DNA of 32,155 nt from Verrucomicrobiia bacterium (GCA_013360985.1 JABWAM010000003.1:1-32155); one strand, 5' to 3'; shown: positions 1 through 30,880, counted from the stretch's first letter. Notes: generated by a model from the sequence alone, not told the origin. Numbers and translations: made by a program.

Positions 1-2
1 TC

Positions 3-239
3 GGCCTCGGGCATGTCCTCCTCGAATGGCGGATCTGGCGCGAGATCCGCTATCCTCTCGGCGTCGTTTTCCTGCCTCCCGTGCTCCTGGCGGGCGGAGC
101 GGTCGCCCTCAGGTTTGTCATGGGGGATACCCTGCCGTTCGCGGGCAGGTTCGCGCTCGCGGGAACGTACGCGGCCCTCGCGGCGTGGGAATGGCTCGCC
201 GGCCGCCGAAGGTTTCTGCCGTCGCCATCCGCCATTTGA
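3..239 (+). CDS. C-terminal fragment of a multi-span membrane protein, possibly a polysaccharide flippase (5' truncated by window edge)
   Basis: Manual translation of the frame starting at base 3: GLGHVLLEWRIWREIRYPLGVVFLPPVLLAGGAVALRFVMGDTLPFAGRFALAGTYAALAAWEWLAGRRRFLPSPSAI*; hydrophobic segments; stop TGA at 237-239; absent from ORF track because it has no start in the window. Confidence 0.55.
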   Translation, partial: GLGHVLLEWRIWREIRYPLGVVFLPPVLLAGGAVALRFVMGDTLPFAGRFALAGTYAALAAWEWLAGRRRFLPSPSAI

Positions 240-270
240 AGGCTCCGCGCCGTTCCCCTTTCCCATCTCC

Positions 271-1041
271 ATGAAAGCTTTCCTCCTCGCCGCCGGCCTC
301 GGGTCGCGGCTGCGGCCGCTGACGGATCGCACCCCGAAATGTCTGCTTCCCATCGGCGGACGCCCGATGCTGCAGATCTGGCTGGAGCAGATGGGGAGTT
401 GGGGCGTCACCGACGTGCTCGTGAACACGCACCACCTCTGGGAGCAGGTGGAGGCTTTCGCATCGACCTGGCGGGGAAAGGCGAAGCTCCATCTCGCCCA
501 CGAGCCCGATCTCTTGGGAAGCGCCGGCACTCTGCGCGCGAACCGCGCCTTCGTAGAGGGCGAGGAGAGCTTCCTCGTCCTTTACGCGGACAACCTCACC
601 GCATTCCGCGCCACGCTCTTGCTGGAACGCCTCGACGCGGAACGGGAGCGCTCGCCGCTTGCGGCGATGGCCCTCTTTCGCAGCCCGCGCCCGAAAGACT
701 GCGGGATCGCCGCGCTCGATGCCGAAGGCTGGGTCACCCGCTTCGCCGAAAAGCCGCGCGAGCCGAAGTCCGACCTCGCGAACGCGGGCATCTACGCCTT
801 CGCCGCCGGCGCGCTCGACCTGATTCCCGAGAAGGCCGTCGCCGACATCGGCCACGACCTCATCCCGCGCCTCGTCCCGAGGATCGTGGGCGTAGAGATG
901 AAGGAGCGCCTTCTCGATATCGGGAGCACGGCAGCCTACCTCGAGGTCCGGGACGCTTCGTTCGAGGAATGGGCGAACGCGTCGATTTCCTCGGCGACGA
1001 GCCAGACCGGTCGTGCGGCAGCCTCCTCGAAGGTCCGGTAA
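271..1041 (+). CDS. NDP-sugar nucleotidyltransferase (mannose-1-P/heptose-1-P type)
   Basis: MKAFLLAAGLGSRLRPLTDRTPKCLLPIGGRPML, the GxGxRLxPLTxxxPKxLLPIGGxPML signature; internal ATG at 271 within the 13..1041 ORF. Confidence 0.9.
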   Translation: MKAFLLAAGLGSRLRPLTDRTPKCLLPIGGRPMLQIWLEQMGSWGVTDVLVNTHHLWEQVEAFASTWRGKAKLHLAHEPDLLGSAGTLRANRAFVEGEESFLVLYADNLTAFRATLLLERLDAERERSPLAAMALFRSPRPKDCGIAALDAEGWVTRFAEKPREPKSDLANAGIYAFAAGALDLIPEKAVADIGHDLIPRLVPRIVGVEMKERLLDIGSTAAYLEVRDASFEEWANASISSATSQTGRAAASSKVR

Positions 1042-1883
1042 AGATATTCGCCGAGCAGGGCGGTACTCAGAAGCTGGGCGCCCAGGAGGATCGCCCCGGC
1101 GGACAATACCAGTCCAGTAGTTGACCCGCCATCAGTCAGCGCCCAGATGAGGCTTGCGAGGCCCGCCAATCCTACGAACAGCCCGAGGGGAAGGCAGAGC
1201 CGCAGCGGCCGCGCGCTGTATGCGAAAATTCCATTCGCGAAGAGCTGCACCTTTTTCGCGAGCGTCCACTTGGAGCGCCCAAACGAACGAGGCGGGCGGT
1301 CGTACTCGAGGACCCGTTGGCGAAAGCCCAGATTCATCAAGAGGCTCAGGATCGAAACATTCCGTCCGCTCTGGCGGTTGACGGCCTCAATGGCCGGGCG
1401 GCGCGCCATAAAAACGTCGATGCCGCCCGGCGGCATTCGCTGTGGAGTGAGACAGTTCATCGCCGCATAAAACGAGCGGGCAAAGAAACGGTCCACGGCC
1501 CCGTCCGCGCGACGTCGTCGGGCGCCGAACACGAGGTCGGCGCCCTCCCGGCAGGCTTCGAGGAAGCGCGGGATGAGATCCACCGGAGTTTGCAAATCGG
1601 CGGCGAGGTTCATCGCGTATTTTCCGCGAGCCGCGCGCAGGGCGGCGAGCAGGGCTGCATGATTGCCGTAGTTTCTTGCCAAACGCACCCCGCGCACGCG
1701 CGAGTCCGAAGCCGCGAGAGACTTCACCGCCTCCCAGGAACCGTCGGTCGAGCCGTCGTCCACGAGAAGAAGTTCCCACTCCACCTGGGGGAGGCGCTCC
1801 ATGGCCGCAGTCACCGCGCGGTGGAGCCGCGGAAGGTTTTCGGCCTCGTTGAGAAGGCCGACCATCAGAGAGAGCTCGATCAT
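936..1883 (-). CDS. GT2 glycosyltransferase, polyprenyl-phosphate sugar synthase type with C-terminal TM segments
   Basis: N-terminal LLVDDGSTDGSWEAV and LARNYGNHAALLAAL, DLQTPVDLIPRF, C-terminal two-TM region and RPVWLVAEE tail. Confidence 0.88.
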   Translation of the reverse strand: MIELSLMVGLLNEAENLPRLHRAVTAAMERLPQVEWELLLVDDGSTDGSWEAVKSLAASDSRVRGVRLARNYGNHAALLAALRAARGKYAMNLAADLQTPVDLIPRFLEACREGADLVFGARRRRADGAVDRFFARSFYAAMNCLTPQRMPPGGIDVFMARRPAIEAVNRQSGRNVSILSLLMNLGFRQRVLEYDRPPRSFGRSKWTLAKKVQLFANGIFAYSARPLRLCLPLGLFVGLAGLASLIWALTDGGSTTGLVLSAGAILLGAQLLSTALLGEYLYRTFEEAAARPVWLVAEEIDAFAHSSNEASRTSR

Positions 1884-2587
1884 GGGCGTGCGGGTTGCGT
1901 GTGATCGCGCAGGATGAAGGACTTTCGCCGTTCGTCAGGGGTCCGGATCCTCATCACGCGCGCCGGGACGCCGGCCACGACGGCTCCGTCCGGGACGTCG
2001 TCAACGACGACCGCGCCGGCTCCGACCACCACATCCTCGCCGACCTTCCGACAAACGACGCTCGCTCCGGCGCCGATGAAGGCGCCCTGTCCGACTTCGA
2101 CGGCAGCGCAGAAAACGGCGCCCGGCCCGAGGTAGACGTTGTCGCCGAGAACGCATTCGTGTTCGACCACGCCATTCGAATAAAGAACGCAGTTGGCGCC
2201 CAGGCGGGCGAACGCGTGGACGACCGCGCCCGGACAGATGATCGCGCCGGGACCGATCTCCGCTCGCGTGTTCACATGGGCTGCGGGCGAGAGGGCGCTG
2301 GGGGTCTCGAGCCCCAGAGAGCGGAGGCGGGAAAAAACGGACGCACGCACGGGCATGTGATTGCAACTCACGCCGACCAGCGCGCCCTGCACGCGCCCTT
2401 CCGCGGCGAGTTTCTCGATGTGGACGAGGGGGGTGAACACGGGAAGCCCGAGCAGCGTGGATCCCTTGAGCGCATCGTTGTCGTCGAGGAAACAGGTCGC
2501 TTTCCATCGACCGACAAGAGCGTCGGCGACGGTGGCGCAGACCACCTTGCCGTGCTCGCGAGCGCCGAGGATGGCGAGCGCTTTCAT
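1880..2587 (-). CDS. NeuD/PglD-like sugar O/N-acyltransferase (left-handed beta-helix)
   Basis: MKALAILGAREHGKVVCATV N-terminal domain followed by hexapeptide repeats (IGPGAIICPGAVVHAFARLGANC...AGVPARVM); internal ATG at 2587. Confidence 0.85.
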   Translation of the reverse strand: MKALAILGAREHGKVVCATVADALVGRWKATCFLDDNDALKGSTLLGLPVFTPLVHIEKLAAEGRVQGALVGVSCNHMPVRASVFSRLRSLGLETPSALSPAAHVNTRAEIGPGAIICPGAVVHAFARLGANCVLYSNGVVEHECVLGDNVYLGPGAVFCAAVEVGQGAFIGAGASVVCRKVGEDVVVGAGAVVVDDVPDGAVVAGVPARVMRIRTPDERRKSFILRDHTQPARP

Positions 2588-4209
2588 GGGCGTTTTTTCT
2601 CGATCACCCGTTTTCCGAGGAACAGGGCGTCCAAACCGGAGCCGTAGAAAGTCGAAATCGCCTGGTTGGGATTCTCGACGATGGGTTGGCCGCGAATGTT
2701 GAAACTGGTATTCAAGACCACGGGAACGCCGGTGCGGCGCCCCAGTTCGGCCAGGAATCGATGGTAAAGAGGTTCGGCCTCGGCGCGGACGGTCTGCACG
2801 CGCGCGGTATTGTCCGCGTGGGTGACCGCCGGGATCCGCGCCCGGGCTTGCGCCCGGACGCCGAAAGTTCGGGTCATGAAAGGCGATTCGACAGGTCTTT
2901 CGAAGAAATCCCCCGCGTTCTCCAAGAGGACCGACGGAGCGAAGGGACGAAATCCTTCGCGGAATTTCACGACTGCGTTGACGCGATCCTTCATCTCCGC
3001 GAGGCGCGGGTCGGCGAGGATGGAACGATGTCCGAGGGCGCGCGCTCCGTACTCCATGCGCCCCTGGTGCCACCCGACGATCTTCCCCTCGGCGACCATG
3101 CGGGCCGCTTCGGCGGCGGGGTCGGGGCATTCCCGCGAAGGGGAACCAACTTCCGAAAGGGCCTTCGCGATCTCCAGTTCGCCGTACTCAGGACCCATTG
3201 CGGCCGTGGAAAGCGGGGGAGGGAGGGGAAGTCCGCGTTGCCATCCGGCCAGGAGGGCGGCCCCTAAAGCGAGGCCGTTGTCGCCGGCCACCGGAGGGAC
3301 ATGGAGGGCGTCGAAGAGGCCCGCTTCGGCGATCTTCTGGTTGAGCACGCAGTTCATGGCGACGCCGCCGGCGATGCACGCCCGCCGCAAACCGGTCTCT
3401 GCGCGGTAATGCGCGAAGAGGCCGAGGGCGGTTTTCTCGAGGAGCGCCTGCGCGCTGGAGGCCAGGTCCATGTGGCGCGGCCCGATCTCTTCCCAGCGGA
3501 GGCGGGCGGGTCCAAGCCGCTGGAGCAACGCGTGGTTGAACAGCGGCTCCTGGGTGGACAGCGGCGGTTCGCCGGGGCCCGCGCTGCGGAACCCTTCGTC
3601 ATTCAGCTTGTAGTCGGCCTTCGACGGAGACAGGAGCCAGTCGAGCGCAATCGAGGGATGGCCGTAGGACGCGAGCCCCATCACCTTGTATTCGTCCTCG
3701 CCGAAATCAAACCCGAGGTGTTGGGTGATCGTCGCGTAGAAAAGCCCCAGCGACTGGGGAAAGGGCCAGCGCCGCAGGGACCGAAGCCCTCGGCGGTCCG
3801 CAGCCGAGACCGTTGTGGCCACGCCATCACCGCTGTAGTCATAGGTGACGACAAGCGCCTCGTCGAAACCACTTCCGAGGAAGGCCGCGGCGGCGTGCGC
3901 CTCGTGGTGATCGCACAGCTCGATCTTCGGCGCGTGCCCGTGGACAAAGAGGAAATACTCGCGAAGGCGGGCCTCGATGTTTCGATACGTGATTCCGGGA
4001 AAGACGACGAGATCAATGTCCTGGATGCGCAGGCCGCCCGCGCGGAGACAGTAACGGATCGCGTGGGTGGGAAGGTTCCCGGGCGCATGCTTGACGCGCG
4101 TGAAGCGCTCCTCCTCGGCGGCGGCGACAACCTGTCCGTCCACCGCGAGCGTCGCGGCGGCGTCCCAATTGCCCATGCGCACCCCTCCGCAAATTCCGAG
4201 GATCCTCAT
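2584..4209 (-). CDS. Carbamoyltransferase, NodU/CmcH family
   Basis: MRILGICGG...AAAEEERFTRVKHAPGNLP; CDHHEAHAAAAF; EYGARALGHRSILADPR; VVLNTSFNIRGQPIVENPNQAI. All are NodU-family landmarks. Confidence 0.93.
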   Translation of the reverse strand: MRILGICGGVRMGNWDAAATLAVDGQVVAAAEEERFTRVKHAPGNLPTHAIRYCLRAGGLRIQDIDLVVFPGITYRNIEARLREYFLFVHGHAPKIELCDHHEAHAAAAFLGSGFDEALVVTYDYSGDGVATTVSAADRRGLRSLRRWPFPQSLGLFYATITQHLGFDFGEDEYKVMGLASYGHPSIALDWLLSPSKADYKLNDEGFRSAGPGEPPLSTQEPLFNHALLQRLGPARLRWEEIGPRHMDLASSAQALLEKTALGLFAHYRAETGLRRACIAGGVAMNCVLNQKIAEAGLFDALHVPPVAGDNGLALGAALLAGWQRGLPLPPPLSTAAMGPEYGELEIAKALSEVGSPSRECPDPAAEAARMVAEGKIVGWHQGRMEYGARALGHRSILADPRLAEMKDRVNAVVKFREGFRPFAPSVLLENAGDFFERPVESPFMTRTFGVRAQARARIPAVTHADNTARVQTVRAEAEPLYHRFLAELGRRTGVPVVLNTSFNIRGQPIVENPNQAISTFYGSGLDALFLGKRVIEKKRP

Positions 4210-4222
4210 CAGGGGCAGGATG

Positions 4223-4972
4223 CTACCGCCGGGAGGCGGTCCCTGTCGAGAGAGGCCAATTCCACAACGCGTCGGAGGCGTCGCAATCGAGAAGCTCCAC
4301 GGTTTCGCGAAGAGTGACGCTGCGCCAGCGACCGGCGGCTGCGGCGTCGAGCAGTTCTCCAAAAAGCGCGGCCACGCCCGGTCCCTTGCGTCGGAGCGCA
4401 GCCAGCTTTGCCGGCTCATGATAACAGGCTTTGGCCTTCTCGTAATCGGCGAGCGTGGAGGCGTTCACGAACCAGGGGATTGGGTGGAAATCCACCACTA
4501 AAAGAGGCTGAATGGAGGGAAGGGACGCCGCCCGGAAGCCTCCCGGATGGCGCGACGGGACGCAGAGGTGAAAGAAATCCATGTAATGAACCGGGATTTC
4601 CCAAAGCCCTGTCTCGCGGCGGAAGGGGGCAACCGCTTGTCCAGGGACAAAGAGGTTGCTCTGATAACGGATGCCCCATCCCGGCAGGAGGCGCACCAAG
4701 CGCGTGTCGGAGTGCAGCGAATGCGAGCGCAGCCCCACGGCGTGGGGATGCCGCCGTCGCAGCTTCTCGAAAGTCGGGATCCAGTCCGATTCCCCGTGAA
4801 AATTCGGGTGAAGGGCCATCTCATGCGAGCTGTTGATTTCCAACTCCGGCGTGTCGGTGCAAAAGAGCGTGGCGCGCACGCCGCGCTTTTCCACTTCCGC
4901 CAGCATCTCGTGGACGATCGGGGCGGGCGCCCACTCGACATCGATGGTCAGCGCCAGGAGAGGAGCGGGCAT
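4223..4972 (-). CDS. Polysaccharide deacetylase family protein
   Basis: LALTIDVEWAP, RATLFCTDTPELE, EMALHPNFHG (HxxxH), GLRSHSLHSDTRL, VVDFHPIP; NodB-like fold landmarks. Confidence 0.82.
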   Translation of the reverse strand: MPAPLLALTIDVEWAPAPIVHEMLAEVEKRGVRATLFCTDTPELEINSSHEMALHPNFHGESDWIPTFEKLRRRHPHAVGLRSHSLHSDTRLVRLLPGWGIRYQSNLFVPGQAVAPFRRETGLWEIPVHYMDFFHLCVPSRHPGGFRAASLPSIQPLLVVDFHPIPWFVNASTLADYEKAKACYHEPAKLAALRRKGPGVAALFGELLDAAAAGRWRSVTLRETVELLDCDASDALWNWPLSTGTASRR

Positions 4973-4976
4973 GGGA

Positions 4977-5624
4977 TCAAACGGACCGTAGACGGCGAGC
5001 GGGGTTGCCCACCCAGACCTCGCCGGGGGGTACGTCCTTGAGGACCACGGCGCCGATGCCGATCAGGGCGCCTTCACCGATGCGCACGCCCTCCCGCACC
5101 CGGCATCCGGAACCCAGATAGGCGTTGCGACCGATCCGTACGCCGCCGGAGAGTAGCGCTCCGGTCGCGAGGACCGCGAAGTCTTCGATCACCGAGTCGT
5201 GGGAAATTACGCAGTTCTGCAGCGCCATGATATGGCTGCCCAGGCGTGCGGCGGCGCCGACCGCGCCGTTCGCCAACACCACCGTGCCCCGCCCAAACCG
5301 CGCCGACGCGGAAATCGTCGCGCGCGGATCCAGGATGGTCAGAAAGGCGTCCGCGGGCGCGCCGGTTCGCGCGACAATCCCCGGTTTGGCCGGATAACTG
5401 GTCGGCGACCCGATGGCGTTCACGAAGCAATCGTCCGCGAAATCCTTCGCGGCTGCGATGGGCCCCAATACGGGAAGTCCATCCACGATGTTCCCTTGAG
5501 GGATCGCGTCGTCGAGGAATCCTCGAGCCTCGGGCGTGGAGGGATCGGCGTTCCGAGCGCGCCGCAAGGCTTCCAGCACGTCCCGGGCGTTGCCATTGAC
5601 ACCGAGGATGCAAACACGCTTCAT
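4977..5624 (-). CDS. NeuD/PglD-like sugar acyltransferase
   Basis: MKRVCILGVNGNARDVLEALR...GFLDD then hexapeptide repeats IGRNAYLGSGCRVREGVRIGEGALIGIGAVVLKDVPPGEVWVGNPARRL. Confidence 0.85.
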   Translation of the reverse strand: MKRVCILGVNGNARDVLEALRRARNADPSTPEARGFLDDAIPQGNIVDGLPVLGPIAAAKDFADDCFVNAIGSPTSYPAKPGIVARTGAPADAFLTILDPRATISASARFGRGTVVLANGAVGAAARLGSHIMALQNCVISHDSVIEDFAVLATGALLSGGVRIGRNAYLGSGCRVREGVRIGEGALIGIGAVVLKDVPPGEVWVGNPARRLRSV

Positions 5625-5655
5625 TGCGGGTCATCTCACCGTCGCCGCTCTCCAT

Positions 5656-6705
5656 TTGAAAGCAGAAAAGCCATCCCCCACGGCCTCGCGGATTCGCGTC
5701 GGGATCGCCGGACTCGGCCACTGGGGCCCCAATCACGCCCGCACCTTCGGCCGCCTTGCAGATCTGGCGGCGATCTGCGACCGCAGCCCGGGGCGTCTCG
5801 CTCAAGTGGGCGCGCTCTTCCCCGGAGTCGCCCGCTACCGGGAATTCGAGGAGATGCTCGATCGCGCGCGTTTGGATGCCGTCATCATCGCGACGCCGAC
5901 TTCTTCCCACGAAGGGTTGGTCGCGGCGACGTTGCGCCGCGGGCTTCATGTTCTTTGTGAAAAACCGCTGGCCCTTCGGGCTGCGGACGCCGCGCGCCTG
6001 GCCTCAGACGCGCGGCGACGTCGGCAGATCCTGATGGTGGGCCACACCTTTCTCTTCAACAGCGGCATCCGCCATCTACGCGGCCTGCTTCGCGCGAAGA
6101 ACCTTGGGCGGATCTATTATCTCCATTCCAAGCGGACGCACTATGGGCTGTTCCGTCCCGACGTGAGCGCGATCTGGGATCTCGCGTCGCACGATGTGGC
6201 GATTTTCAACTACCTCCTCGATTCTCGGCCTACCGAGGTCTCTGCCGTCGGGTTCGACTGGCTGCGGCGGGAACTTCATGACCTCGGCTTCATCACGTTC
6301 CGTTATCCGGGCGGGATCGCGGCACACATCCACGTCGGCTGGCTCGATCCCAAGAAGGTCCGCGAGATCACCGTGGTCGGCGACCGCCGCATGGCGGTGT
6401 GGCAGGACGGCGGCTCCCCGGGTCCCGTGACGCTGTACGACCGTTACGTGGTCCGCGGGCGGCCCCTTGTGCGCGAGTTCGGCGAGTTCCAGCTCCTGCC
6501 GCGCGAGGGGGATATCACGGTGCCCAATCTCCCGCTTGAGGAACCCCTTCTTGTGCAGGCGCGCGAATTCCTTGCCGCGATCTCGGAAGGATCCTCGCCG
6601 CTCTCGGATGGATGCTTCGCTGCCGAGGTGGTGCGCGCGCTTGAGGCGACCGACCGCTCCGTCCGTCTGCATGGCGCGCCCGTCAGGATTCACTCCCGCC
6701 GTTGA
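5656..6705 (+). CDS. Gfo/Idh/MocA family oxidoreductase (sugar dehydrogenase)
   Basis: RVGIAGLGHWGPNHARTFGRL Rossmann motif; DAVIIATPTSSHEGLV; HVLCEKPLAL; MVGHTFLFNSGI. Start uncertain (TTG 5656 or ATG 5608). Confidence 0.9.
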   Translation: MKAEKPSPTASRIRVGIAGLGHWGPNHARTFGRLADLAAICDRSPGRLAQVGALFPGVARYREFEEMLDRARLDAVIIATPTSSHEGLVAATLRRGLHVLCEKPLALRAADAARLASDARRRRQILMVGHTFLFNSGIRHLRGLLRAKNLGRIYYLHSKRTHYGLFRPDVSAIWDLASHDVAIFNYLLDSRPTEVSAVGFDWLRRELHDLGFITFRYPGGIAAHIHVGWLDPKKVREITVVGDRRMAVWQDGGSPGPVTLYDRYVVRGRPLVREFGEFQLLPREGDITVPNLPLEEPLLVQAREFLAAISEGSSPLSDGCFAAEVVRALEATDRSVRLHGAPVRIHSRR

Positions 6706-7244
6706 TGAAACGATTGCCCAAGAAGCCTTTCGTTCACGCCGCCGCGAGGGTGGAAAGCTCCCGGATCGGCGCGCGCACCCGGATCTGGGCTTTCAGCCAT
6801 GTGCAACCGCGCGTGCGCCTGGGCGCCGACTGCAACGTGGGCGAGCACTGCTTTATCGAAAACGGCGTGACGATCGGCGACCGGGTGACCATCAAGAACG
6901 GCGTTTCCCTCTGGGAGGGAATGCGCGTGGGTCACGACGTCTTCATCGGACCGAACGCGACGTTCACCAACGACCTTCGCCCGCGCTCGCCAAGATCCGC
7001 CGCGGGCAAGGGGCGCTATCGCACGAAGGATTGGTTGGCGCGCGTCATTCTCGAGGCGGGGTGCAGCGTCGGGGCGAACGCCACGGTGATCGGCCCGGTG
7101 CGCCTCGGCCGCGGATGCATGGTCGCCGCGGGCGCGGTGGTCACCCGCAACGTCGCTCCGTGTGAACTCGTCGCCGGCAATCCCGCCCGTCGGATCGGCT
7201 GGGTCAACCTCCGCGGAGAACGCGTCGCCCGTCGCCCCCGATGA
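6705..7244 (+). CDS. WbpD/WlbB-like hexapeptide N-acetyltransferase
   Basis: GARTRIWAFSHVQPRVRLGADCNVGEHCFIENGVTIGDRVTIKNGVSLWEGMRVGHDVFIGPNATFTNDLRPRS; NPARRIGWV. Start overlaps upstream stop (TGATG). Confidence 0.88.
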   Translation: MKRLPKKPFVHAAARVESSRIGARTRIWAFSHVQPRVRLGADCNVGEHCFIENGVTIGDRVTIKNGVSLWEGMRVGHDVFIGPNATFTNDLRPRSPRSAAGKGRYRTKDWLARVILEAGCSVGANATVIGPVRLGRGCMVAAGAVVTRNVAPCELVAGNPARRIGWVNLRGERVARRPR

Positions 7245-8221
7245 ACGCAATCCGCGGCGCGACCTTCCTGATCACCGGCGGCGCGGGCCTCGTCGGCTCG
7301 CATCTCGCGGATCAGTTGCTCGCCGCGGGCGCCGCGAAAGTTCGCGTCCTCGACAACTTCCTCCGCGGCCGCGAGGAGAACCTCGCCGCCGCAGCGGCCA
7401 CTGGCCGCCTCGAACTCCATCGCGGGGACGTGCGGGATGCGGACCTCGTGGATCGCCTCGCCCGGGGTTGCGACGGCGTCTTCCACCAGGCGGCGATGCG
7501 CATCACGCTCTGCGTGGAGCGCCCGCGCGAGTGCCTCGACTCAATGGTGATGGGCTCCCTCAACGTGGTCGAGTCGTGCCTCCGCCACAAGGTGAAGAAG
7601 CTCATCGCGGCCTCCTCGGTGAGCGTCTACGGCCTCGCGGAGGAATTCCCCATCCGCGAGACGCATCACCTCTACGCGAACCGGACGCTCTACGGCGCCG
7701 CCAAAGTCGCCAACGAACAGATGTATCGGGCGTTCGCGGAAATGAACGGTCTGACGTATGTGGCGTTCCGTTACTTCAACGTGTACGGCCCGAGAATGGA
7801 TCGCACCGGTGCGTACACGGAAGTGATGATCCGTTGGCTTTACGCCGCGATGGACGGACAGCGCCCCAAGATTTTCGGGCGCGGCGAACAGTCCATGGAT
7901 TTCGTGCACGTGGAGGACATCGCGCGCGCCAACCTCGCAGCCTGGGAACGCGACGTCACCGACGAAGTCTTCAATGTCTGCACGGGACGCGAGACGAGCT
8001 TGATCGAGCTCTGGCGGATCATCCAGGAGGTCACTGGCGCGCGCGATCTCGAACCCGAGTATCTCCCCGCGCGCACCGTCGGTCCCGTGGGCCGCAGGGT
8101 GGGGGACCCGTCGAAGGCCGAGAGACTCCTCGGTTTCAAGGCGCGCATCCCGCTCGAAGAAGGGATGCGTTCGCTCTCCGCATGGCTGAAGGGCGCGCCC
8201 CGCATGGAGGCGCCTCAATGA
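7241..8221 (+). CDS. NAD-dependent sugar epimerase/dehydratase (extended SDR)
   Basis: FLITGGAGLVGSHLAD; SSVSVYGLAEEFP; LYGAAKVANEQMYRAF; YFNVYGPRMD. Confidence 0.9.
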   Translation: MNAIRGATFLITGGAGLVGSHLADQLLAAGAAKVRVLDNFLRGREENLAAAAATGRLELHRGDVRDADLVDRLARGCDGVFHQAAMRITLCVERPRECLDSMVMGSLNVVESCLRHKVKKLIAASSVSVYGLAEEFPIRETHHLYANRTLYGAAKVANEQMYRAFAEMNGLTYVAFRYFNVYGPRMDRTGAYTEVMIRWLYAAMDGQRPKIFGRGEQSMDFVHVEDIARANLAAWERDVTDEVFNVCTGRETSLIELWRIIQEVTGARDLEPEYLPARTVGPVGRRVGDPSKAERLLGFKARIPLEEGMRSLSAWLKGAPRMEAPQ

Positions 8222-9318
8222 ACATCCCTGTCGCCAAGGTAGACTTGGAAGAGAGCGACCTGCGCCGCGTCGAGGAGGTCGTCCGCTCGGGATGGATCAT
8301 GCAGGGGCCGAAGGTGGAGGCCTTCGAGCGGGCGATCGCCGATTTCTGCGGCGCCCGCCATGCCGTGGCGGTTACTTCGGGAACGACCGCTTTGCACCTC
8401 ATGCTTCACGCCGCGGGGATTGGCCTTGGCGACGAGGTCGTGGTCCCCTCGTTTTCCTGGATCGCGACCGCCAACTGCGTGGCGTACTGCGGCGCGACGC
8501 CCTCTTTCTGTGACGTGGATCTCGCGTCTTACAATATGACGCCTCCGCTGGCCGAGGCGGCGATCACTCCCCGCACCAAAGCCATCCTTGCGGTTCATCA
8601 GTTTGGGATGCCCTGCGACCTGGACGGGTTCGCGCGTCTGGCGCGAGAGCGGGGCGTCATGCTTTTCGAGGATGCCGCCTGCGCCATCGGGAGCGAATCC
8701 CGCGGGGTCCGGATCGGAGGATTCAAATCCTCCGTCGCGGCATGTCTCTCGTTTCATCCCAGGAAAGTTTTGACGACGGGGGAGGGAGGGATGCTCCTGA
8801 CGAACGACGCCGCGCTTGCTGAAAAAGTTCGGCAACTCCGGAACCACGGGCTGGAGAACGGGCGGTTCGTGGAGATCGGTTACAACTTCCGCATGACCGA
8901 TCTCCAGGCTGCCCTGGGAATCGGTCAGGTCGCGCGTCTGCCCGAGACGCTCGCGAAACGTCGCGCCCTCGCGGAGGTCTATCGCAAGGAACTCGGAGGG
9001 GTCGCGGGCCTGCGGCTGCCCGAGGAGATATCCGGGGGTTGCACAAACGTCCAGTCTTTCATGGTGCGTTTCCCCGAAGGAGGGCGGACGCTGCGGGATC
9101 GCGTCGCTTCCGCGCTTGCCGCCCGGGGAATCGCCACGCGCCCCGGGATTGCGCCGATCCATCTCGAGCCATGCTATGCGAAGGTCTGTGCGGGATTGCG
9201 CCTTCCAAACACCGAACGGCTTGCGGGAGACGGTCTCGTGCTGCCCCTTTATGCTTCGCTGACCCCCGCGAAGGCTGTCGAAATTTCCCACGCGCTTCTC
9301 GCAGCGCTGCGTGCCTGA
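8218..9318 (+). CDS. DegT/DnrJ/EryC1 (ArnB-type) sugar aminotransferase
   Basis: SGWIMQGPKVEAFE; AVAVTSGTTALHLML; VVPSFSWIATANCV; LFEDAACAIGSESRG; FHPRKVLTTGEGGML; ATG at 8218 overlapping upstream TGA. Confidence 0.92.
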   Translation: MNIPVAKVDLEESDLRRVEEVVRSGWIMQGPKVEAFERAIADFCGARHAVAVTSGTTALHLMLHAAGIGLGDEVVVPSFSWIATANCVAYCGATPSFCDVDLASYNMTPPLAEAAITPRTKAILAVHQFGMPCDLDGFARLARERGVMLFEDAACAIGSESRGVRIGGFKSSVAACLSFHPRKVLTTGEGGMLLTNDAALAEKVRQLRNHGLENGRFVEIGYNFRMTDLQAALGIGQVARLPETLAKRRALAEVYRKELGGVAGLRLPEEISGGCTNVQSFMVRFPEGGRTLRDRVASALAARGIATRPGIAPIHLEPCYAKVCAGLRLPNTERLAGDGLVLPLYASLTPAKAVEISHALLAALRA

Positions 9319-9515
9319 TCACGCCATGGTTGTCCCCCGGCGCATCTCCCCCGAGATGTCGACGGTATCTGGCCGCCCATGCTGTGATCCTGGAAATGTC
9401 GTGAAGGCGTCGCCCATTTCTCGTACGAGAATGGGTTTCCTATGCCTTGCGCGGGGATTTGGGGCGCGCGGGACGCATTGCGTTCCCGCGGGAGTTTCGC
9501 GAGAATCGCGCGGTC

Positions 9516-10703
9516 ATGGCTGGTGAACGTCCCCTCTGTATCTCCACGCTGGATCTTGCGTTTTTTCGGCAGGGAGGAATCGTCACCAAGGCGCTGGCCC
9601 TGGCGCGCGTCGCGGCACGCGCGGGATATGCGCCGTTCTTCCTGACGCCCTCGGTGGATCTTCATCACACCATTCGGCGAACGCTCTCAGGCGGAACGCG
9701 CCCGGCCACACGCGAGTCCGTCTTTGCGGGCTACCGTTGCGTTCAAATGGCCGCGCGCTTCCCGGAGTTCGAATTTCGCGCGCACTTCTTCGATCCGGTT
9801 CGCGTGCGGAAGGCGCTGGGAGAACGCGCCGTGTGCGTCATGGTGAGCGGAAACAATCACGCCGCGCGGCCGTTCCTCGATCTCGGCCGCGCCTTCAGCA
9901 TGTGGCCGGGATCCACCTTCTGGGAGGATTGCCGCCATCGGGTCCTCGCCGCGCCGTGGGGCGTCCGAAAGGCCCTCGACCTTGCCACGCGCCCACTCTC
10001 CGAGCGCCTCGAGCGTCGGCTCTTCGCCGCCGCCCGCAAGGTGGCCGTCGATACGCGCTACACGCGCGACTGCGTGCTGCGCCTCGACGCCTCCTGGGCG
10101 CCGAAAACGACGATCGTGCCCGTTCCCGTGGATACGGATCGCTACCGTCCGGGGGAAGGAAATCCCGAACCGCAGATTTTGTTCATTGGACGACTCTCGG
10201 ATCCTCGGAAGAATCTTGGTCTTTTGCTGGACGCCTTCGCGCGGGCTGCCTCTCGCGCGCCTGGGCTCCGCCTCGCGCTGATCGGGAGCGGAGACGAATC
10301 CGTCGCCGCGCGCCTGGTCGGCCATCCCTGCGCCGACCGGATCGCCTGGCTGGCCGACGTTACGGAGGAACAGAAAATTCGTCACCTCCGCGCTTCTCTG
10401 GCTCTCGTCATCCCGTCGCATCAGGAGGGGTTCGGGATCACCGGCGCCGAGGCCCTCGCCTGCGGCACGCCCGTGATTTCCACGCCGTGCGGTGGCCCGG
10501 AGGATTACGTGGTCAACGGTCAAACGGGCCGCCTCCTCCGTGGTTTCGACGCGCCGGAAATGGCGGAGGCGATGCTGGAAATGGCGAACGACGCCGTGGA
10601 GCGCCGCCGGATGTCGACGGAGGCGCGTGCCCTCGCCGAAGAACGATTGAGCGAACAGGCGGTGAAACCGGACCTGCTGAAACTCATCGAAGCGGCTGCG
10701 TAA
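9516..10703 (+). CDS. GT4 family glycosyltransferase
   Basis: VPVPVDTDRYRPG; ILFIGRLSDPRKNLGLLLDAF; VIPSHQEGFGITGAEALACGTPVISTPCGGPEDYV. Internal ATG 9516. Confidence 0.88.
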   Translation: MAGERPLCISTLDLAFFRQGGIVTKALALARVAARAGYAPFFLTPSVDLHHTIRRTLSGGTRPATRESVFAGYRCVQMAARFPEFEFRAHFFDPVRVRKALGERAVCVMVSGNNHAARPFLDLGRAFSMWPGSTFWEDCRHRVLAAPWGVRKALDLATRPLSERLERRLFAAARKVAVDTRYTRDCVLRLDASWAPKTTIVPVPVDTDRYRPGEGNPEPQILFIGRLSDPRKNLGLLLDAFARAASRAPGLRLALIGSGDESVAARLVGHPCADRIAWLADVTEEQKIRHLRASLALVIPSHQEGFGITGAEALACGTPVISTPCGGPEDYVVNGQTGRLLRGFDAPEMAEAMLEMANDAVERRRMSTEARALAEERLSEQAVKPDLLKLIEAAA

Positions 10704-10835
10704 GGCGGCAACGGCGGGTGCGGAATCCCACCTTGATCCTCCGCTTGGTCGGTGGAGGAAATTCCCGCAGCTTCCAAGGGGGAGATCAAGAAGGGCCCCA
10801 AATCCCCGCGTAAGACATGGGGGGAGTCCACCTTC

Positions 10836-10987
10836 GGTCGAGGAACAGGCGACGCCCTCGCGACATTTTGGACTCAGGCCGCGGCCGCGGCGCCGCCGGC
10901 GACGGCGCCCTCCCTCGCTTCGCGACCGAGCGGATTTTCCTCGAACACGGAATGCGGAAAGGTAGGGCGAGGCCGCCGGCCGAGCCA
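10836..10987. repeat. GC-rich REP-like/palindromic intergenic sequence
   Basis: Non-coding stretch with GGCGCCGccggcgaCGGCGCC (7-bp stem) and GGTAGGGCGAGGCCGCCGGCCGAGCC imperfect palindrome; no convincing ORF. Confidence 0.35.
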
Positions 10988-11121
10988 TCACACCTTTCGT
11001 GTGGGGAGTCTGAAATCTCGACGCAACCCACCCCTCCGATCCTCCATGGATGATGATGAGGGTTGCCCTCTGAAAATGGAGTTGATCCGTGGATTTGGGA
11101 GGGGGACATCCCCTCCGCGCT

Positions 11122-12036
11122 TCATGCAGCGGGTTTGCGCGTTTCCCAGAACAGGAACCATCCGAAACGCGCGTTCACCCAGGCGTCGAAGCGTTTCGCG
11201 AGGGCGGGGGAGATGCGGCGGAGAAGAGGCGAAATCTTCGGCAGGGCTTCGGAGCCGGCTTCCTGGAGGATGCGAAAGCGCGGAGGTTCGAACTCCCCCA
11301 GAAGTTCGCGCGCTTCCGAAACCGTATAGTGTCGGGCGATCGCGCCGTCGGTGAAGGTCTGGTTGACCTCCTCGAGCGTCCGCGTCAGGAGTTTGCCGCG
11401 GACAAGGCCGTGCTGGAGGCCGCCGACGATCCAGTAGCGGACGCTGCGGCGGTGATAGACCATTGCACGGAACAAACCGCCAGGTCTGAGCACGCGACGG
11501 ATCTCGGCGACGATCGCGGGGGTGTTCGCCGAATGATGGATTACGCCCCACGACCAGACCTGATCGAAACAGGCCGCGGGGTAGGGGAGACGTTCTCCGT
11601 CGGCGCGCACGATCCCCACGGCGATCCCTTTTTGAGAACATCGGGCGCGCGTCAGTTTCACCGCGGTTTCCGTCAGATCCATCGTGACCACGCGCGCGCC
11701 CGCGGAGGCGAAAAGCGTGGCATGCAGGCCGAGGCCGCAGCCGATTTCCAGGATGCGCTGTCCGCGCGCGCCTTGCCAGTCGATGAGGCGCGAATAGGGA
11801 GGGTCGGCGGGGTAGGCGGGGTGGCCGAAGGGGCGATGCGCCTCGATCGCGCGGCGGTCGCTTTGCTCGAAGAACTCCGGGGTCCCCGGCGGCGCCGCGA
11901 TCACCCCGTCCCAATCGTAGGTCATTGGACGGGCGTTCCACCAGGAGGCATTATCCTGTTGCGAGATTTGCACGGAAGGGTTTATGCCGTTATGAGAACT
12001 TCGCCACAAGGCGGCGTTTTCACCTTCGATTCTCAT
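11122..12036 (-). CDS. Class I SAM-dependent methyltransferase
   Basis: WWNARPMTYDW; RILEIGCGLGLHATLFASAGARVVTMDLTETAV; DQVWSWGVIHHSANTPAIVAEIRRVLRPGGLF. Start uncertain (ATG 12036, GTG 11973 or ATG 11925). Confidence 0.88.
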   Translation of the reverse strand: MRIEGENAALWRSSHNGINPSVQISQQDNASWWNARPMTYDWDGVIAAPPGTPEFFEQSDRRAIEAHRPFGHPAYPADPPYSRLIDWQGARGQRILEIGCGLGLHATLFASAGARVVTMDLTETAVKLTRARCSQKGIAVGIVRADGERLPYPAACFDQVWSWGVIHHSANTPAIVAEIRRVLRPGGLFRAMVYHRRSVRYWIVGGLQHGLVRGKLLTRTLEEVNQTFTDGAIARHYTVSEARELLGEFEPPRFRILQEAGSEALPKISPLLRRISPALAKRFDAWVNARFGWFLFWETRKPAA

Positions 12037-12802
12037 GCGTTACAAACTGATCAGTTGCGAAGTCTTTCTCCGGGAAATGTGCGCCGCGATTGCGAAATCG
12101 CCGCATCAGGTGGACCTCGAGTTTTTGCCCAAGGGGCTTCACGACCTGGGATGCGTCGGGATGCTCGCCCGCATGCAGGCGGCCGTCGACCGGGTCAAGG
12201 AGGAGGACTACGATACCATCCTGCTCGGCTACGGCTTGTGCAACAACGGTCTGCACGGCCTCGTCGCGCACGGGCTTCCGCTGGTCGTGCCGCGCGCACA
12301 CGACTGCATCACTCTGTTCCTAGGGAGCAAGGAGCGTTATCTCGAATATTTCCACGCGAATCCGGGCGTTTTCTTCAAGACCACCGGCTGGATCGAACGC
12401 GGGACCGCGTCGGGAGAGCTGAGCCAACTCTCCATCCAGCAGAGGAACGGCATGAATTCCAGTTTTGAGGAACTGGTCGAGAAATACGGCGAGGACAACG
12501 CGAAGTTTCTTTGGGAAGAGCTCTGCCAGCACTCCAAGCATTATGGCCAGTTCACCTACATCGAAATGGGCGTCGCCGACGAAAGACCGTTCCAGGAGCA
12601 AACCAAGAAAGAAGCCGAGAAACGGGGCTGGAAATACGAATCGATCCAGGGCGACCTCGGCATCATTCAGCGCCTGGTCAACGGCGATTGGCGGGATGCG
12701 GAAGTGCTCGTGGTGCCGCCGCATCACAAACTGGTCGCAAAACACGACGAAGGGATCGTCGCCGTGGCGCCGTTGCCGCCCGCTTCCGCGTCCGGCGCGT
12801 AG
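12035..12802 (+). CDS. DUF1638-like protein of unknown function
   Basis: MRYKLISCEVFLREM; DTILLGYGLCNNGLHGLV; LVVPRAHDCITLFLGSKERYLEYF; GVFFKTTGW match my memory of DUF1638 landmarks. Confidence 0.75.
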   Translation: MRYKLISCEVFLREMCAAIAKSPHQVDLEFLPKGLHDLGCVGMLARMQAAVDRVKEEDYDTILLGYGLCNNGLHGLVAHGLPLVVPRAHDCITLFLGSKERYLEYFHANPGVFFKTTGWIERGTASGELSQLSIQQRNGMNSSFEELVEKYGEDNAKFLWEELCQHSKHYGQFTYIEMGVADERPFQEQTKKEAEKRGWKYESIQGDLGIIQRLVNGDWRDAEVLVVPPHHKLVAKHDEGIVAVAPLPPASASGA

Positions 12803-12835
12803 CGCGTGGAAATCGCAACAGCCGACGCAGGACGG

Positions 12836-13252
12836 CTATTCGCCGATGATCTTCACGAGAACGCGTTTGCGCCGGCGTCCGTCGAATTCGCCATAGAAAA
12901 TCTGCTCCCACGGGCCGAGATCGAGGCCTCCTTGGGTGACGGCGACGACCACCTCGCGGCCCATGATCGTGCGCTTGAGATGAGCGTCCGCGTTGTCTTC
13001 GGCGCCGTTGTGCGCGTACTGCGCATGCGGTTTTTCCGGCGCGAGCTTCTCGAGCCACTTCTCGAAGTCCGCATGCAGCCCGCGTTCGTCGTCGTTGATG
13101 AAGACGCTGGCGGTGATATGCATCGCGTTGACGAGCGCCAACCCCTCGCGCACGCCGCTCTCGCGGAGACAGGCCTCGATTTGGGGAGTGATGTTCAGCA
13201 ACGCCCGGCGCGCGGGAACTTCGAACCAGAGTTCTTTCCGAAAGCTTTTCAT
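12836..13252 (-). CDS. YjbQ/UPF0047 family protein
   Basis: [79 protein letters not shown]; start chosen at [12 protein letters not shown] (13252). Confidence 0.9.
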
Positions 13253-13431
13253 TCCGGCCAGGCTAACGGAGGGGCGACGCAAGGGCGAGACGGCAGCTTC
13301 AGGCTTTCAGATTTTCTTCAATATTACATAGAATAAGTATTGTGCGACGTTATCTTATCCCAAAGGGAGAAGGAAAAGATTCGACAAGCGTAAGATCGAG
13401 ATGCTCGCCCGCTGGGGCGCGGTCTTTTTGA

Positions 13432-14352
13432 TTACCGAACTTCGGGGCTTCCCGGAAACCTTGCGAGAACCGAACGAAAATCTTCAGGAATTGGAGCGGA
13501 GAATTCTAGAGGCTGCGCGGTTCGCGGATGGCGAAAGCCGAGTCGCCATGCGTGAAGCATCTGACGATGTGGAATCTGGGTCGCAACAGATCCCTTGCCA
13601 TAAAGCAGGTCGCCGAGCACCGGGCATCCCAGAAATGCCAGATGCACGCGGATCTGATGCGTGCGCCCCGTGAAAATCCGGCATTCGAGAAGACTGGTCT
13701 CCCGTCCGCGGGCAAGCACCTTCCAATCGGTCCGAGCGCTTCTTCCGTCCTTGCGAACGGTCATTCGCTGGCGGTGCACGGCATGGCGACCGATCGGCGC
13801 ATCCAGTCGTCCGCGGTCGCTCCGCGGAAGGCCGCGGACCAGCGCCAGATAGACTTTGATGAATTCGCGGGCCTTCAAGGCTGCGGCGAGCGCGCGGTGC
13901 GCGGCGTCGTTTTTCGCGACCACGAGACAACCGCTGGTGTCCTTGTCGAGGCGATGGACGATCCCAGGGCGTTCCTCGCCGCCAATGCCGCTGAGTTGCC
14001 CTCGGCAATGATGAAGCAGCGCGTGGACGAGCGTGCCATCTCGTCGCCCCGCGCCGGGATGCACGACCATACCGGCCGGCTTATTGACGACCAGGAGGTC
14101 GCCGTCCTCGTAGAGGATGTCGAGGTCGCGCGCTTCGGGGAGGAGAGATGCGGGACGCGGAGGGGGGAAATGAACCTCGATGCGGTCCCCTGCCCTGACG
14201 CGCGCCGAAGGAAGCGCGGCCTGTCCATTGAGGAGAACGTTCCCTTCAAGGATGAGGCGCTGGAGCGCCGAGCGCGACGGTTCGGGGAAATGCGCGCGCA
14301 GCCATGCGTCGAGACGGCGCGCATTCTCCGTGGCGGTGAGCGCGTGCCTCAT
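13432..14352 (-). CDS. RluA/RluD-family pseudouridine synthase
   Basis: ILYEDGDLLVVNKPAGMVVHPGAG; GIVHRLDKDTSGCLVVAKND; GRTHQIRVHLAFLGCPVLGDLLYG; S4-like N-terminus; internal ATG at 14352. Confidence 0.93.
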   Translation of the reverse strand: MRHALTATENARRLDAWLRAHFPEPSRSALQRLILEGNVLLNGQAALPSARVRAGDRIEVHFPPPRPASLLPEARDLDILYEDGDLLVVNKPAGMVVHPGAGRRDGTLVHALLHHCRGQLSGIGGEERPGIVHRLDKDTSGCLVVAKNDAAHRALAAALKAREFIKVYLALVRGLPRSDRGRLDAPIGRHAVHRQRMTVRKDGRSARTDWKVLARGRETSLLECRIFTGRTHQIRVHLAFLGCPVLGDLLYGKGSVATQIPHRQMLHAWRLGFRHPRTAQPLEFSAPIPEDFRSVLARFPGSPEVR

Positions 14353-14368
14353 CGCTCGGGCCTCTGCG

Positions 14369-14800
14369 TCAGGGCGTCTTTTCCGCCGGCGCGGTCGCAA
14401 AAGCGACGTTCCAGATATCCGCCGCCCGGCAGGTGTCGAGCACCGCGATGACGTGGCGATAGCTGACCTCTTCGTCGGCGCGCAGGATGACTGCCTGATT
14501 GGGGAATTGCGCCACGATTCGTTTGAGGATCTCGAGAAGCTCTGCGTGATCCACCGCGCGACGGTTGAGGATGACCCGCCCATCTTTCGCGACGTTGAGC
14601 ACGATTTCTCCCGGCAGCCGTTTCGGTTCCTGCCCCTGCTTGGCCGTCGGCACCCGCACATCGAGCTCAGTCTCGTAACGCGCGACGTTCCATGTGAGGA
14701 GAAAGAACGTGAGCAGAAAGAGGATCACGTCGATCATCGGCGCCAGTTGCAGCCCGATGGGTTCGGTGCGAGTTCGCGCGCGAAAGTTCACGGAAGACAA
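14369..14800 (-). CDS. exbD: ExbD/TolR biopolymer transport protein
   Basis: LQLAPMIDVILFLLTFFLLTW; single N-terminal TM with conserved Asp; periplasmic domain VPTAKQG...VILRADEEVSYRHVIAVLD. Confidence 0.88.
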   Translation of the reverse strand: MSSVNFRARTRTEPIGLQLAPMIDVILFLLTFFLLTWNVARYETELDVRVPTAKQGQEPKRLPGEIVLNVAKDGRVILNRRAVDHAELLEILKRIVAQFPNQAVILRADEEVSYRHVIAVLDTCRAADIWNVAFATAPAEKTP

Positions 14801-14813
14801 TTCGTCCGAGACG

Positions 14814-15563
14814 TCAATTCTTGCCGAGGCGAGAAATCATGGCGCCCACAAGCGGGGTGGCGGCGGCTTCGAGATCCGAAATCAACCCCTGCACTCGCCC
14901 GCGAAACCAGGAGTAGAAAAACATCGCGAGGATGCCGACCACCAGACCGGCTGCTGTCGCCACCAACGCTTGGGAGACGCCACCGGCGAGGAGCATGGTG
15001 CGCATGGGAGTGGCCTCGCTGGCAATCGAGCCGAACGAACGCAAGATCCCGACAACCGTGCCAAAAAGCCCGAGCATTGGGGCGAGCACGCCGACATCCA
15101 TGAGGTAGACGACCATCTGGGTCAGCGCCGCCGATTGGCGGTTCCCCTCGGATTGGGCCACCTCGCGAATGGCCGCCCCCCCAACGTCGGGATTCTCCAC
15201 GGCGAAGGTCAGCGTTGTCTCGATCACACGCGCGAGAGCTTGCGGCTCACGCCGCGCCGCGTCGGCCAGCCGTCCCCAATCTCCCTTTTGAATGAGGTCT
15301 CCCGCCTGACGGGAAAACTCCGGCGTCGCCACACGCGACGCCCGGAGCGCAAGCAGGTAGTAAAGAATCAACGCCACGGCGATGACGGAGATGACGAGCA
15401 GCGGAATCATCACCCATCCTCCCGCGACGAGAAGCTCCCAGAGACTGAGCTCTGCCGAGACCGGAGCGGACGCGGGAAGCGCGCCTGCCGCGGGCGCGAC
15501 AGTTTGCGCGGCGGCTCGAACCGCCGCCGCGAATGAGAGTAAGGCGATGGGAAGGAATTTCAT
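14814..15563 (-). CDS. exbB: MotA/TolQ/ExbB proton channel family protein
   Basis: Signal-like N-terminus MKFLPIALLSFAAAVRAAAQ; GVLAPMLGLFGTVVGILRSFGSIA; GGVSQALVATAAGLVVGILAMFFYSWF. Confidence 0.9.
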   Translation of the reverse strand: MKFLPIALLSFAAAVRAAAQTVAPAAGALPASAPVSAELSLWELLVAGGWVMIPLLVISVIAVALILYYLLALRASRVATPEFSRQAGDLIQKGDWGRLADAARREPQALARVIETTLTFAVENPDVGGAAIREVAQSEGNRQSAALTQMVVYLMDVGVLAPMLGLFGTVVGILRSFGSIASEATPMRTMLLAGGVSQALVATAAGLVVGILAMFFYSWFRGRVQGLISDLEAAATPLVGAMISRLGKN

Positions 15564-15673
15564 GGCGACCTCGGAGGCGATTAGAAGCCGGAGCGTCCGC
15601 CGACGCAATGCGTTTCCGCGACTCCCATTTGAAGATTGCCGGACGGTCTCGCATCGGCTAGGGGGGCATCGCC

Positions 15674-16246
15674 ATGAAATACCAAACCATCCTCCTCTTC
15701 GGAGCGCCGGGTTGCGGCAAGGGAACCCAAGGGAAAATTCTCGGACAGATCCCAGGCTTTTTCCTCCTTTCATGCGGCGACGTCTTTCGAGGGCTCGATT
15801 CCCGATCCAAACTGGGGCAAATTTTTCTCGAATACTCAAGCAAAGGGGAGCTTGTTCCGGATGAGTTCACCGTTCAACTGTGGCAAAACCATGTGGACGC
15901 CCTGGTGCAAGCGAAGCGCTTTTCTCCCGATCGCGACATACTCGTGCTCGACGGCATCCCGCGGAATCTGAATCAGGCGAAGATCATGTCCGATCGCCTT
16001 TGCGTCACGCGCCTTTTCCATCTCGATTGCCCGGACCGCGCCAAGCTCGTGGAACGCCTCAAGCGGCGGGCGTTGAGAGAAAATCGCCTTGATGACGCCA
16101 ACGAAGCGACGATTCGCCATCGGATCGAGGTCTACGAGGCGGAGACGGTGTCCGTCCTCGGCTTTTACGACAAGGATCTGGTCGCGGTCATCGACGGCAC
16201 CCGCTCGCCCCTCGAGGTTGCGCGCGCCGTTCTCGCGCGGCTTTGA
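15674..16246 (+). CDS. adk: Adenylate kinase-like nucleoside monophosphate kinase
   Basis: ILLFGAPGCGKGTQGKIL P-loop; SCGDVFRG; ILVLDGIPRNLNQAKIM; short LID region; C-terminal IDGTRSPLEV. Confidence 0.82.
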   Translation: MKYQTILLFGAPGCGKGTQGKILGQIPGFFLLSCGDVFRGLDSRSKLGQIFLEYSSKGELVPDEFTVQLWQNHVDALVQAKRFSPDRDILVLDGIPRNLNQAKIMSDRLCVTRLFHLDCPDRAKLVERLKRRALRENRLDDANEATIRHRIEVYEAETVSVLGFYDKDLVAVIDGTRSPLEVARAVLARL

Positions 16247-16396: not shown

Positions 16397-16855
16397 ATGA
16401 TTCAAGGCGTTGACATCAAGGAACTCGCCACGCACGCCGACGAACGCGGCTTTTTTCGCGAGATCATTCGCGCCACGGATCCCTTCTTTGCCGGCGCCTT
16501 CGGCCAGTGGAGCCATTCCATGATGCACCACGGCGTCGTCAAGGCGTGGCATATCCATCGGATTCAGACGGATTGGTGGTATGTGGCGACCGGCCTCCTC
16601 AAAGTCGCCTTGCACGACCTTCGCGAAAGTTCCGCCACGCGCGGCCAGACGATGGAATTGCTGATGGGCGAGCATCAGCCGCCGCATGTCGTCAAAATCC
16701 CGTCGGGCGTGGCCCATGGCTGCCGGGTAATCAGCGCGCCGGCACACCTCTTTTACCTCACCTCGAAGGAATACGATCCGTCGGACGAGGGGCGGATCCC
16801 GCACGACGACCCAAAAATCGGTTACGACTGGCTCAAGCCTTCGAAGATCGGCTGA
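16397..16855 (+). CDS. dTDP-4-dehydrorhamnose 3,5-epimerase-like cupin
   Basis: DERGFFREIIR; AWHIHRIQTDWWYVATGLLKVALHDLRESSATRG; VVKIPSGVAHGCRVIS; DDPKIGYDW. Confidence 0.85.
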   Translation: MIQGVDIKELATHADERGFFREIIRATDPFFAGAFGQWSHSMMHHGVVKAWHIHRIQTDWWYVATGLLKVALHDLRESSATRGQTMELLMGEHQPPHVVKIPSGVAHGCRVISAPAHLFYLTSKEYDPSDEGRIPHDDPKIGYDWLKPSKIG

Positions 16856-18670: not shown

Positions 18671-18674
18671 GGAA

Positions 18675-19250: not shown

Positions 19251-19256
19251 GCGCGG

Positions 19257-20192: not shown

Positions 20193-20206
20193 CGCCGAAG
20201 CTCCTC

Positions 20207-30605: not shown

Positions 30606-30789
30606 GGATGCGCGTCTCTTTTTCCCGCAACTCCCTCCTCTTCGCCAGACAAAACGAAGGCAAACCTGGAGTCGGATCGAAAGATCGGAGAAGGGCGGAG
30701 CGTCGAGCCCTCCCGCTGCGTTCGGCGGCGCGCCCAAGGATGGACAAATCGCGAACGCCGCTCCATCCTTCGGCATAATTCGACTGGTC

Positions 30790-30872
<83 letters not shown>

Positions 30873-30880
30873 CCCTTCGC

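Follow-up and report, generated by a model that had tools for sequence, protein, structure and literature searches.

Which surface sugar does a bacterium tailor when one operon combines a deacetylase, an O-carbamoyltransferase, two NeuD-family acyltransferases (NeuD1 and NeuD2) and a GT2 glycosyltransferase? The question arises from a 32,155-nucleotide stretch of DNA from Verrucomicrobiia bacterium (GCA_013360985.1 JABWAM010000003.1:1-32155), hereafter the window, which corresponds to contig C22 in a metagenome-assembled genome (MAG) 2.67 Mb in size and 76% complete. An earlier note, made from the sequence alone, had described a sugar-decoration operon resembling the tailoring of rhizobial Nod factors. 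Here we asked whether the operon is real, to which families its enzymes belong, and what the genes beside related deacetylases suggest about its function.

The five genes form a real operon

All five open reading frames (ORFs) lie on the minus strand between 5624 and 936 and are transcribed in the order NeuD1, deacetylase, carbamoyltransferase, NeuD2 and GT2 (Table 1). The tight spacing reported earlier, with ATGA overlaps or gaps of less than 15 bp, was borne out: both overlaps are present in the sequence (2584-2587, carbamoyltransferase/NeuD2; 1880-1883, NeuD2/GT2), and the two remaining intergenic gaps measure 4 and 13 bp. Domain matches of all five proteins pass Pfam or NCBIfam cut-offs, and all except GT2 are devoid of transmembrane segments and signal peptides.

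The only other genome of the same genus that we searched, the MAG of Verrucomicrobiia bacterium SJ867, carries all five genes in identical order, adjoining the same divergent operon, and its contig is collinear with the window from 1 to 16,246. Amino-acid identity between the two genomes is 62% for NeuD1 and 82-91% for the rest, and the ratio of non-synonymous to synonymous substitution rates (dN/dS) is 0.07-0.24 for each gene, indicating purifying selection. Given this conserved order and these ratios, the ORF structure is not due to chance, confirming a co-directional, tightly packed operon.

The deacetylase belongs to the WbmS-like family

The deacetylase had been described as NodB-like. 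However, PF22537 (WbmS-like) was the sole profile reported for it (102.9 bits, cut-off 27), with no match to PF01522 (NodB/CE4) at E 0.001. Its only sequence match in the PDB is 3hft, WbmS of Bordetella (E 3e-14), which is also the best Foldseek match (E 1.4e-16, TM 0.74) of an AlphaFold2 model with a predicted local distance difference test score of 88; ArnD (E 6e-5, TM 0.53) and CE4 enzymes follow as more distant matches. Across 19 relatives twelve residues are invariant, including the putative active-site residues D11, H55, R82, H84, D132, H163 and N170. The H-x3-H metal motif of NodB/CE4 is not conserved in these sequences, which have a single invariant His there (H55, within HPNF). We thus rejected a NodB/CE4 identity and assign the enzyme to PF22537, a family named for the Bordetella O-antigen protein.

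The locus of that protein, the wbm O-antigen locus of Bordetella bronchiseptica, is among the closest known systems, and both sequence and fold place its deacetylase in this family. Sugars of the 2,3-diacetamido type make up the Bordetella O antigen (PMC2279256), wbmS sits in the serotype-variable part of the locus (PMC3849452), and formyltransferase genes have been reported for a wbm locus (PMC12243275). In contrast, the window has no formyltransferase beside its WbmS-like gene, and carries two NeuD genes, a carbamoyltransferase and a GtrB/ArnC-like GT2 instead.

WbmS-like genes adjoin re-acylases in other phyla

When the contigs of GTDB genomes were scanned with an alignment of WbmS, 18 loci emerged, one being that of SJ867 and the remaining 17 belonging to other lineages; because loci were selected by conserved-motif patterns, the sample leans toward closer relatives. 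It includes Gamma-, Alpha- and Deltaproteobacteria, Myxococcota, actinobacteria and MAGs of Lentisphaeraceae, Melioribacteraceae and Thermodesulfovibrionales. Outside the genus there are 18 WbmS-like copies (two in L029), and 16 have a readable downstream gene, the other two stopping at a contig edge.

In 13 of these 16 copies the next gene encodes a sugar N-formyltransferase or a hexapeptide acyltransferase. A formyltransferase lies directly downstream in ten (L031, L033, L034, L037, L039-L043 and L045), overlapping by 4-10 bp or separated by 8-12 bp, and all ten enzymes keep the Asn-x-His motif; a hexapeptide acyltransferase follows in three (L029, L035 and L036). Among the other genes of these loci, an estimated 10% or so are of these two kinds (22/~217, assuming 0.95 genes per kb), giving a binomial p of 4e-11, or 3e-9 when the three actinobacterial loci are collapsed and 2e-7 when they are collapsed at a base rate of 15%. 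In L044 a formyltransferase is nearby on the opposite strand, and L047 and L048, which came from genome searches and are outside the 16, have no such neighbour within their short flanks. The trio of Gfo, DegT and WbpD genes found in the window is also near WbmS in L037, L039, L042 and L043. Because a re-acylase-type gene is next in so many more copies than expected, we infer that the amine freed by a WbmS-like enzyme is re-acylated by a partner enzyme.

Some loci showed further features. L029 carries its two WbmS-like genes at 6068-6796 and 8989-9675, the one following a formyltransferase and the other preceding the hexapeptide acyltransferase, with two genes that look CitE-like by sequence impression between them. 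The WbmS-like genes of L030 (4268-5077) and L047 (1486-2217) have no adjoining sugar-acyl partner; an NYN-domain gene lies downstream of the former, and a gene that appears radical-SAM-like, again by impression, lies upstream of the latter.

The two NeuD proteins resemble amino-sugar N-acyltransferases

Both proteins previously named NeuD acyltransferases exceed the TIGR03570 cut-off of 160.8 bits (NeuD1, 165.9; NeuD2, 171.9), and they share 33% identity (68/205). The best PDB match of NeuD1 is VioB (E 1.6e-31), and its His142 lies in an HD motif. NeuD2 matches PF17836 (PglD_N), has His143, and is closest in the PDB to the pilin-glycosylation acetyltransferase 4m98 and to perosamine N-acetyltransferase. 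The solved structures closest to both are 4-amino-sugar N-acyltransferases, in the family of PglD, VioB and PerB; unlike in those systems, a deacetylase and a carbamoyltransferase stand between two NeuD copies in the window.

GT2 is predicted to use a polyprenyl-phosphate carrier

The GT2 protein matches PF00535, its residues 2-298 align with GtrB sll0501 in the PDB (E 6e-44), and hydrophobic 19-mers at 229 and 259 would form a C-terminal transmembrane pair. With a GT2 domain, this pair and a full-length match, it is predicted to be of the polyprenyl-phosphate, GtrB/ArnC-like type, in agreement with the earlier note. A NodC identity was rejected, as the protein scores 24.3 bits against the NodC model TIGR04242, whose equivalog cut-off is 550.

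The match to the ArnC structure (E 1e-37) raises the possibility of an Arn-like order, in which GT2 would act first, loading undecaprenyl phosphate with an acylated amino sugar. Deacylation by the WbmS-like enzyme would follow on the lipid and leave the amine charged; the NeuD and carbamoyl steps would be earlier or separate. Like the ArnB-ArnC-ArnD pathway to Und-P-Ara4N, the locus combines a DegT aminotransferase (E 2e-74 to the ArnB model, below its cut-off), a polyprenyl-phosphate GT2 and a NodB-fold deacylase; ArnD is among the structural matches of that deacylase, and a PMT_2 glycosyltransferase gene lies about 3 kb past the nucleotidyltransferase gene in SJ867. We nevertheless consider this order unlikely. 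The deacetylase fits the WbmS fold far better than that of ArnD, GT2 scores 133.4 bits against the ArnC model NF007986 (equivalog cut-off 529), and the pairing of WbmS with acyl-adding enzymes elsewhere would make little sense if a free amine were the end product. Also unlike the Arn pathway, the window lacks an ArnA formyltransferase and adds NeuD and carbamoyl steps.

The carbamoyltransferase is not NodU

The carbamoyltransferase carries both domains of its family, PF02543 and PF16861, and matches the NovN, GdmN and TobZ structures with E values down to 9e-100. Its HxxxH (101/105), D124 and D310 align with the corresponding residues of those structures, which we take to be metal-binding, as in TobZ. 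Characterised members of this NodU/CmcH/TobZ family modify hydroxyls. The designation NodU-type holds for the family; a NodU identity was rejected, the score against NF041651 being 150.6 bits where the equivalog cut-off is 1000.

The earlier proposal was that deacetylation exposes a position for subsequent carbamoylation and acylation, much as NodB, NodU and NodL tailor Nod factors. All the enzyme classes do occur within one operon, and we regard the proposal as very improbable: the likeness extends to the general classes only (deacetylase, carbamoyltransferase, acyltransferase), the deacetylase is of another family, the NodU and NodC models score far under their cut-offs, and the window has no chitin synthase NodC and a cytosolic amino-sugar setting. 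Carbamoylation of the exposed position is likewise doubtful, since the family acts on hydroxyls, the neighbours of WbmS point to re-acylation of an amine, and a carbamoyltransferase is missing from all 17 of the other WbmS loci. The low NodC and NodU scores do agree with the note's own expectation of a product other than a Nod factor.

Carbamoyltransferase genes are numerous in these genomes of about 2.7 Mb, with at least 4 or 5 loci each: contigs C1, C22, C120, C225 and C402 in the genome of the window (G000), and contigs C22, C38, C53 and C61 in G289. Neither WbmS nor a glycan operon was found among the neighbours of the genus's other carbamoyltransferase loci.

The five-gene set was found in one genus only

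The WbmS-like family is rare. PF22537 matches occur in 3 of 289 genomes of the phylum, Verrucomicrobiota, including the window's own genome and one weak match, and two other classes gave one other match in 369 genomes and one other in 395. WbmS is absent from the four other genomes of the order, leaving this genus's two genomes as its only carriers there, and none was found in viral contigs and plasmids. Since the other WbmS loci have no carbamoyltransferase and WbmS occurs nowhere else in the order, the five-gene set is, as far as sampled, a genus-level variant, and the pair of deacylase and re-acylase is what recurs across phyla. The kinds of enzyme are known; their combination was seen in this genus only. 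The earlier note had held that conservation confined to close relatives would count against its pathway, and the co-occurrence search goes part of the way towards that outcome.

Synonymous divergence (dS) between the window and SJ867, a rough estimate at values this high, falls to 0.61-0.71 across the nucleotidyltransferase, GT2, NeuD2, carbamoyltransferase and WbmS genes (271-4972). For NeuD1, the divergent operon and the other genes in the comparison (4977-16246) it is 0.80-1.42, and the edge at NeuD1 is abrupt. This pattern suggests that, once the two species had separated, the five-gene block from nucleotidyltransferase to WbmS may have been exchanged in one piece bounded at NeuD1.

The operon lies in a large surface-glycan locus

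Table 1. Genes of the five-gene operon and of its surroundings, in window coordinates.
Feature	Coordinates	Strand	Evidence and remarks
NeuD1, NeuD/PglB/VioB-family left-handed beta-helix N-acyltransferase; likely deacetylase partner	4977..5624	-	TIGR03570, VioB match, His142
WbmS-like deacetylase, soluble	4223..4972	-	PF22537, 3hft by sequence and fold, invariant residues
O-carbamoyltransferase, NodU/CmcH/TobZ family	2584..4209	-	PF02543 + PF16861; NovN, GdmN, TobZ structures
NeuD2, second NeuD-family N-acyltransferase, with PglD_N domain	1880..2587	-	TIGR03570, PF17836, His143
GT2, two predicted C-terminal transmembrane segments, polyprenyl-phosphate sugar synthase type (GtrB/ArnC-like)	936..1883	-	PF00535, GtrB sll0501, ArnC
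Sugar-1-phosphate nucleotidyltransferase, convergent with the five-gene operon	271..1041	+	PF00483
Gfo/Idh/MocA oxidoreductase, UDP-GlcNAc 3-dehydrogenase-like; first in divergent operon	5692..6705	+	PF01408; NF040723 E 1.4e-40, below cut-off
WbpD/WlbB-like hexapeptide N-acetyltransferase	6705..7244	+	PF00132; present in SJ867
SDR sugar epimerase/dehydratase	7241..8221	+	PF01370 E 2e-54
DegT-family sugar aminotransferase	8218..9318	+	PF01041 E 2e-111
GT4 glycosyltransferase, last of divergent operon	9516..10703	+	PF00534; kept in SJ867

The operon and its surroundings constitute a large surface-glycan locus. Gfo/Idh, WbpD-like, SDR and DegT genes such as those of the divergent operon make 2,3-diamino sugars in other bacteria. 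In SJ867 the nucleotidyltransferase gene stands beside a gene for a Wzx-like flippase (Polysacc_synt_3, locus L059), and the genes beyond it also encode a GDSL protein, the PMT_2 glycosyltransferase, a C-methyltransferase, another Gfo/Idh protein and a GT2.

Elsewhere in the window, a second amino-sugar cluster occupies 16833-21184 on the minus strand (a UDP-GlcNAc 2-epimerase, a GT2, a hexapeptide acetyltransferase and two SDR genes) and has no blastn match on the SJ867 contig. At 28594-30776 the gene for an MFS transporter overlaps that for a GT2, and a tRNA-Leu comes next at 30790-30874.

A model for N-acyl exchange

Our model suggests that the operon acts as the tailoring arm of this locus, through N-acyl exchange, O-carbamoylation and polyprenyl-phosphate loading; we judge the chances that it does so to be evenly balanced. 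The divergent operon would provide a UDP-linked diamino sugar, from which the WbmS-like enzyme would take off an N-acetyl group in the cytosol, and NeuD1, NeuD2 or both would re-acylate the freed amine. The carbamoyltransferase would then O-carbamoylate a hydroxyl of the sugar, and GT2 would place the finished sugar on polyprenyl phosphate, to be exported and added to a glycan. Besides the re-acylase pairing, the model draws on the 4-amino-sugar N-acyltransferases that both NeuD proteins match best, the Gfo, DegT and WbpD trio near other WbmS genes, the diacetamido sugars of Bordetella, the absence of membrane segments and signal peptides from all the proteins but GT2, the flippase and PMT_2 genes of SJ867, and purifying selection on all five genes. 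Gene content and order, conservation within the genus, the protein families, the fold and the re-acylase beside WbmS in other phyla are what the analysis shows; we infer the substrate, the amine, the acyl group, the order of the steps and the final acceptor.

Several points weigh against it. The downstream re-acylase, a pattern of our own observation and not a published family criterion, is not what the window has: a carbamoyltransferase, not an acyltransferase, lies directly downstream of WbmS, with NeuD1 directly upstream and NeuD2 one gene further. NeuD1, being more diverged than the other proteins, may not be a dedicated partner of WbmS, and NeuD enzymes can complete a DegT product without any deacetylase. 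A GtrA flippase as partner of GT2 is absent from both the window genome and SJ867. In open-access papers we found neither a WbmS-like protein with a proven substrate nor direct literature on WbmS function or on the deacetylase-formyltransferase pair.

An alternative is a set of independent decorations on different sugars of one polysaccharide repeat, in which the NeuD enzymes acetylate DegT products, WbmS deacetylates another residue and the carbamoyltransferase acts on a third, the operon being shared only because the same glycan is served. The locus does hold two NeuD genes and one or more DegT genes, such mixtures are common in O-antigen loci, and the divergence of NeuD1 is unlike that of the other four genes. 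However, WbmS adjoins an acyl-adding enzyme in many phyla, which makes a functional link likely at least for that pair, and we consider fully separate decorations rather improbable.

Returning to N-acyl exchange, the structure of WbmS has been solved, and we found no reaction assigned to it in the open-access literature; its pairing with acyl-adding enzymes points to a specific one, the exchange of an N-acyl group on a nucleotide-linked amino sugar. We tentatively propose, as a serious possibility somewhat short of probable, that a WbmS-like deacetylase and a dedicated partner (a formyltransferase, a hexapeptide acyltransferase or a NeuD enzyme) make up a module, widespread and so far undescribed, by which the N-acetyl group of such sugars is replaced with another acyl group. 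If so, it would account for N-formyl and other N-acyl groups at positions initially bearing N-acetyl in the surface sugars of bacteria, sugars that affect antigenicity, and the version found in this genus would extend the chemistry to carbamoylation and loading onto polyprenyl phosphate.

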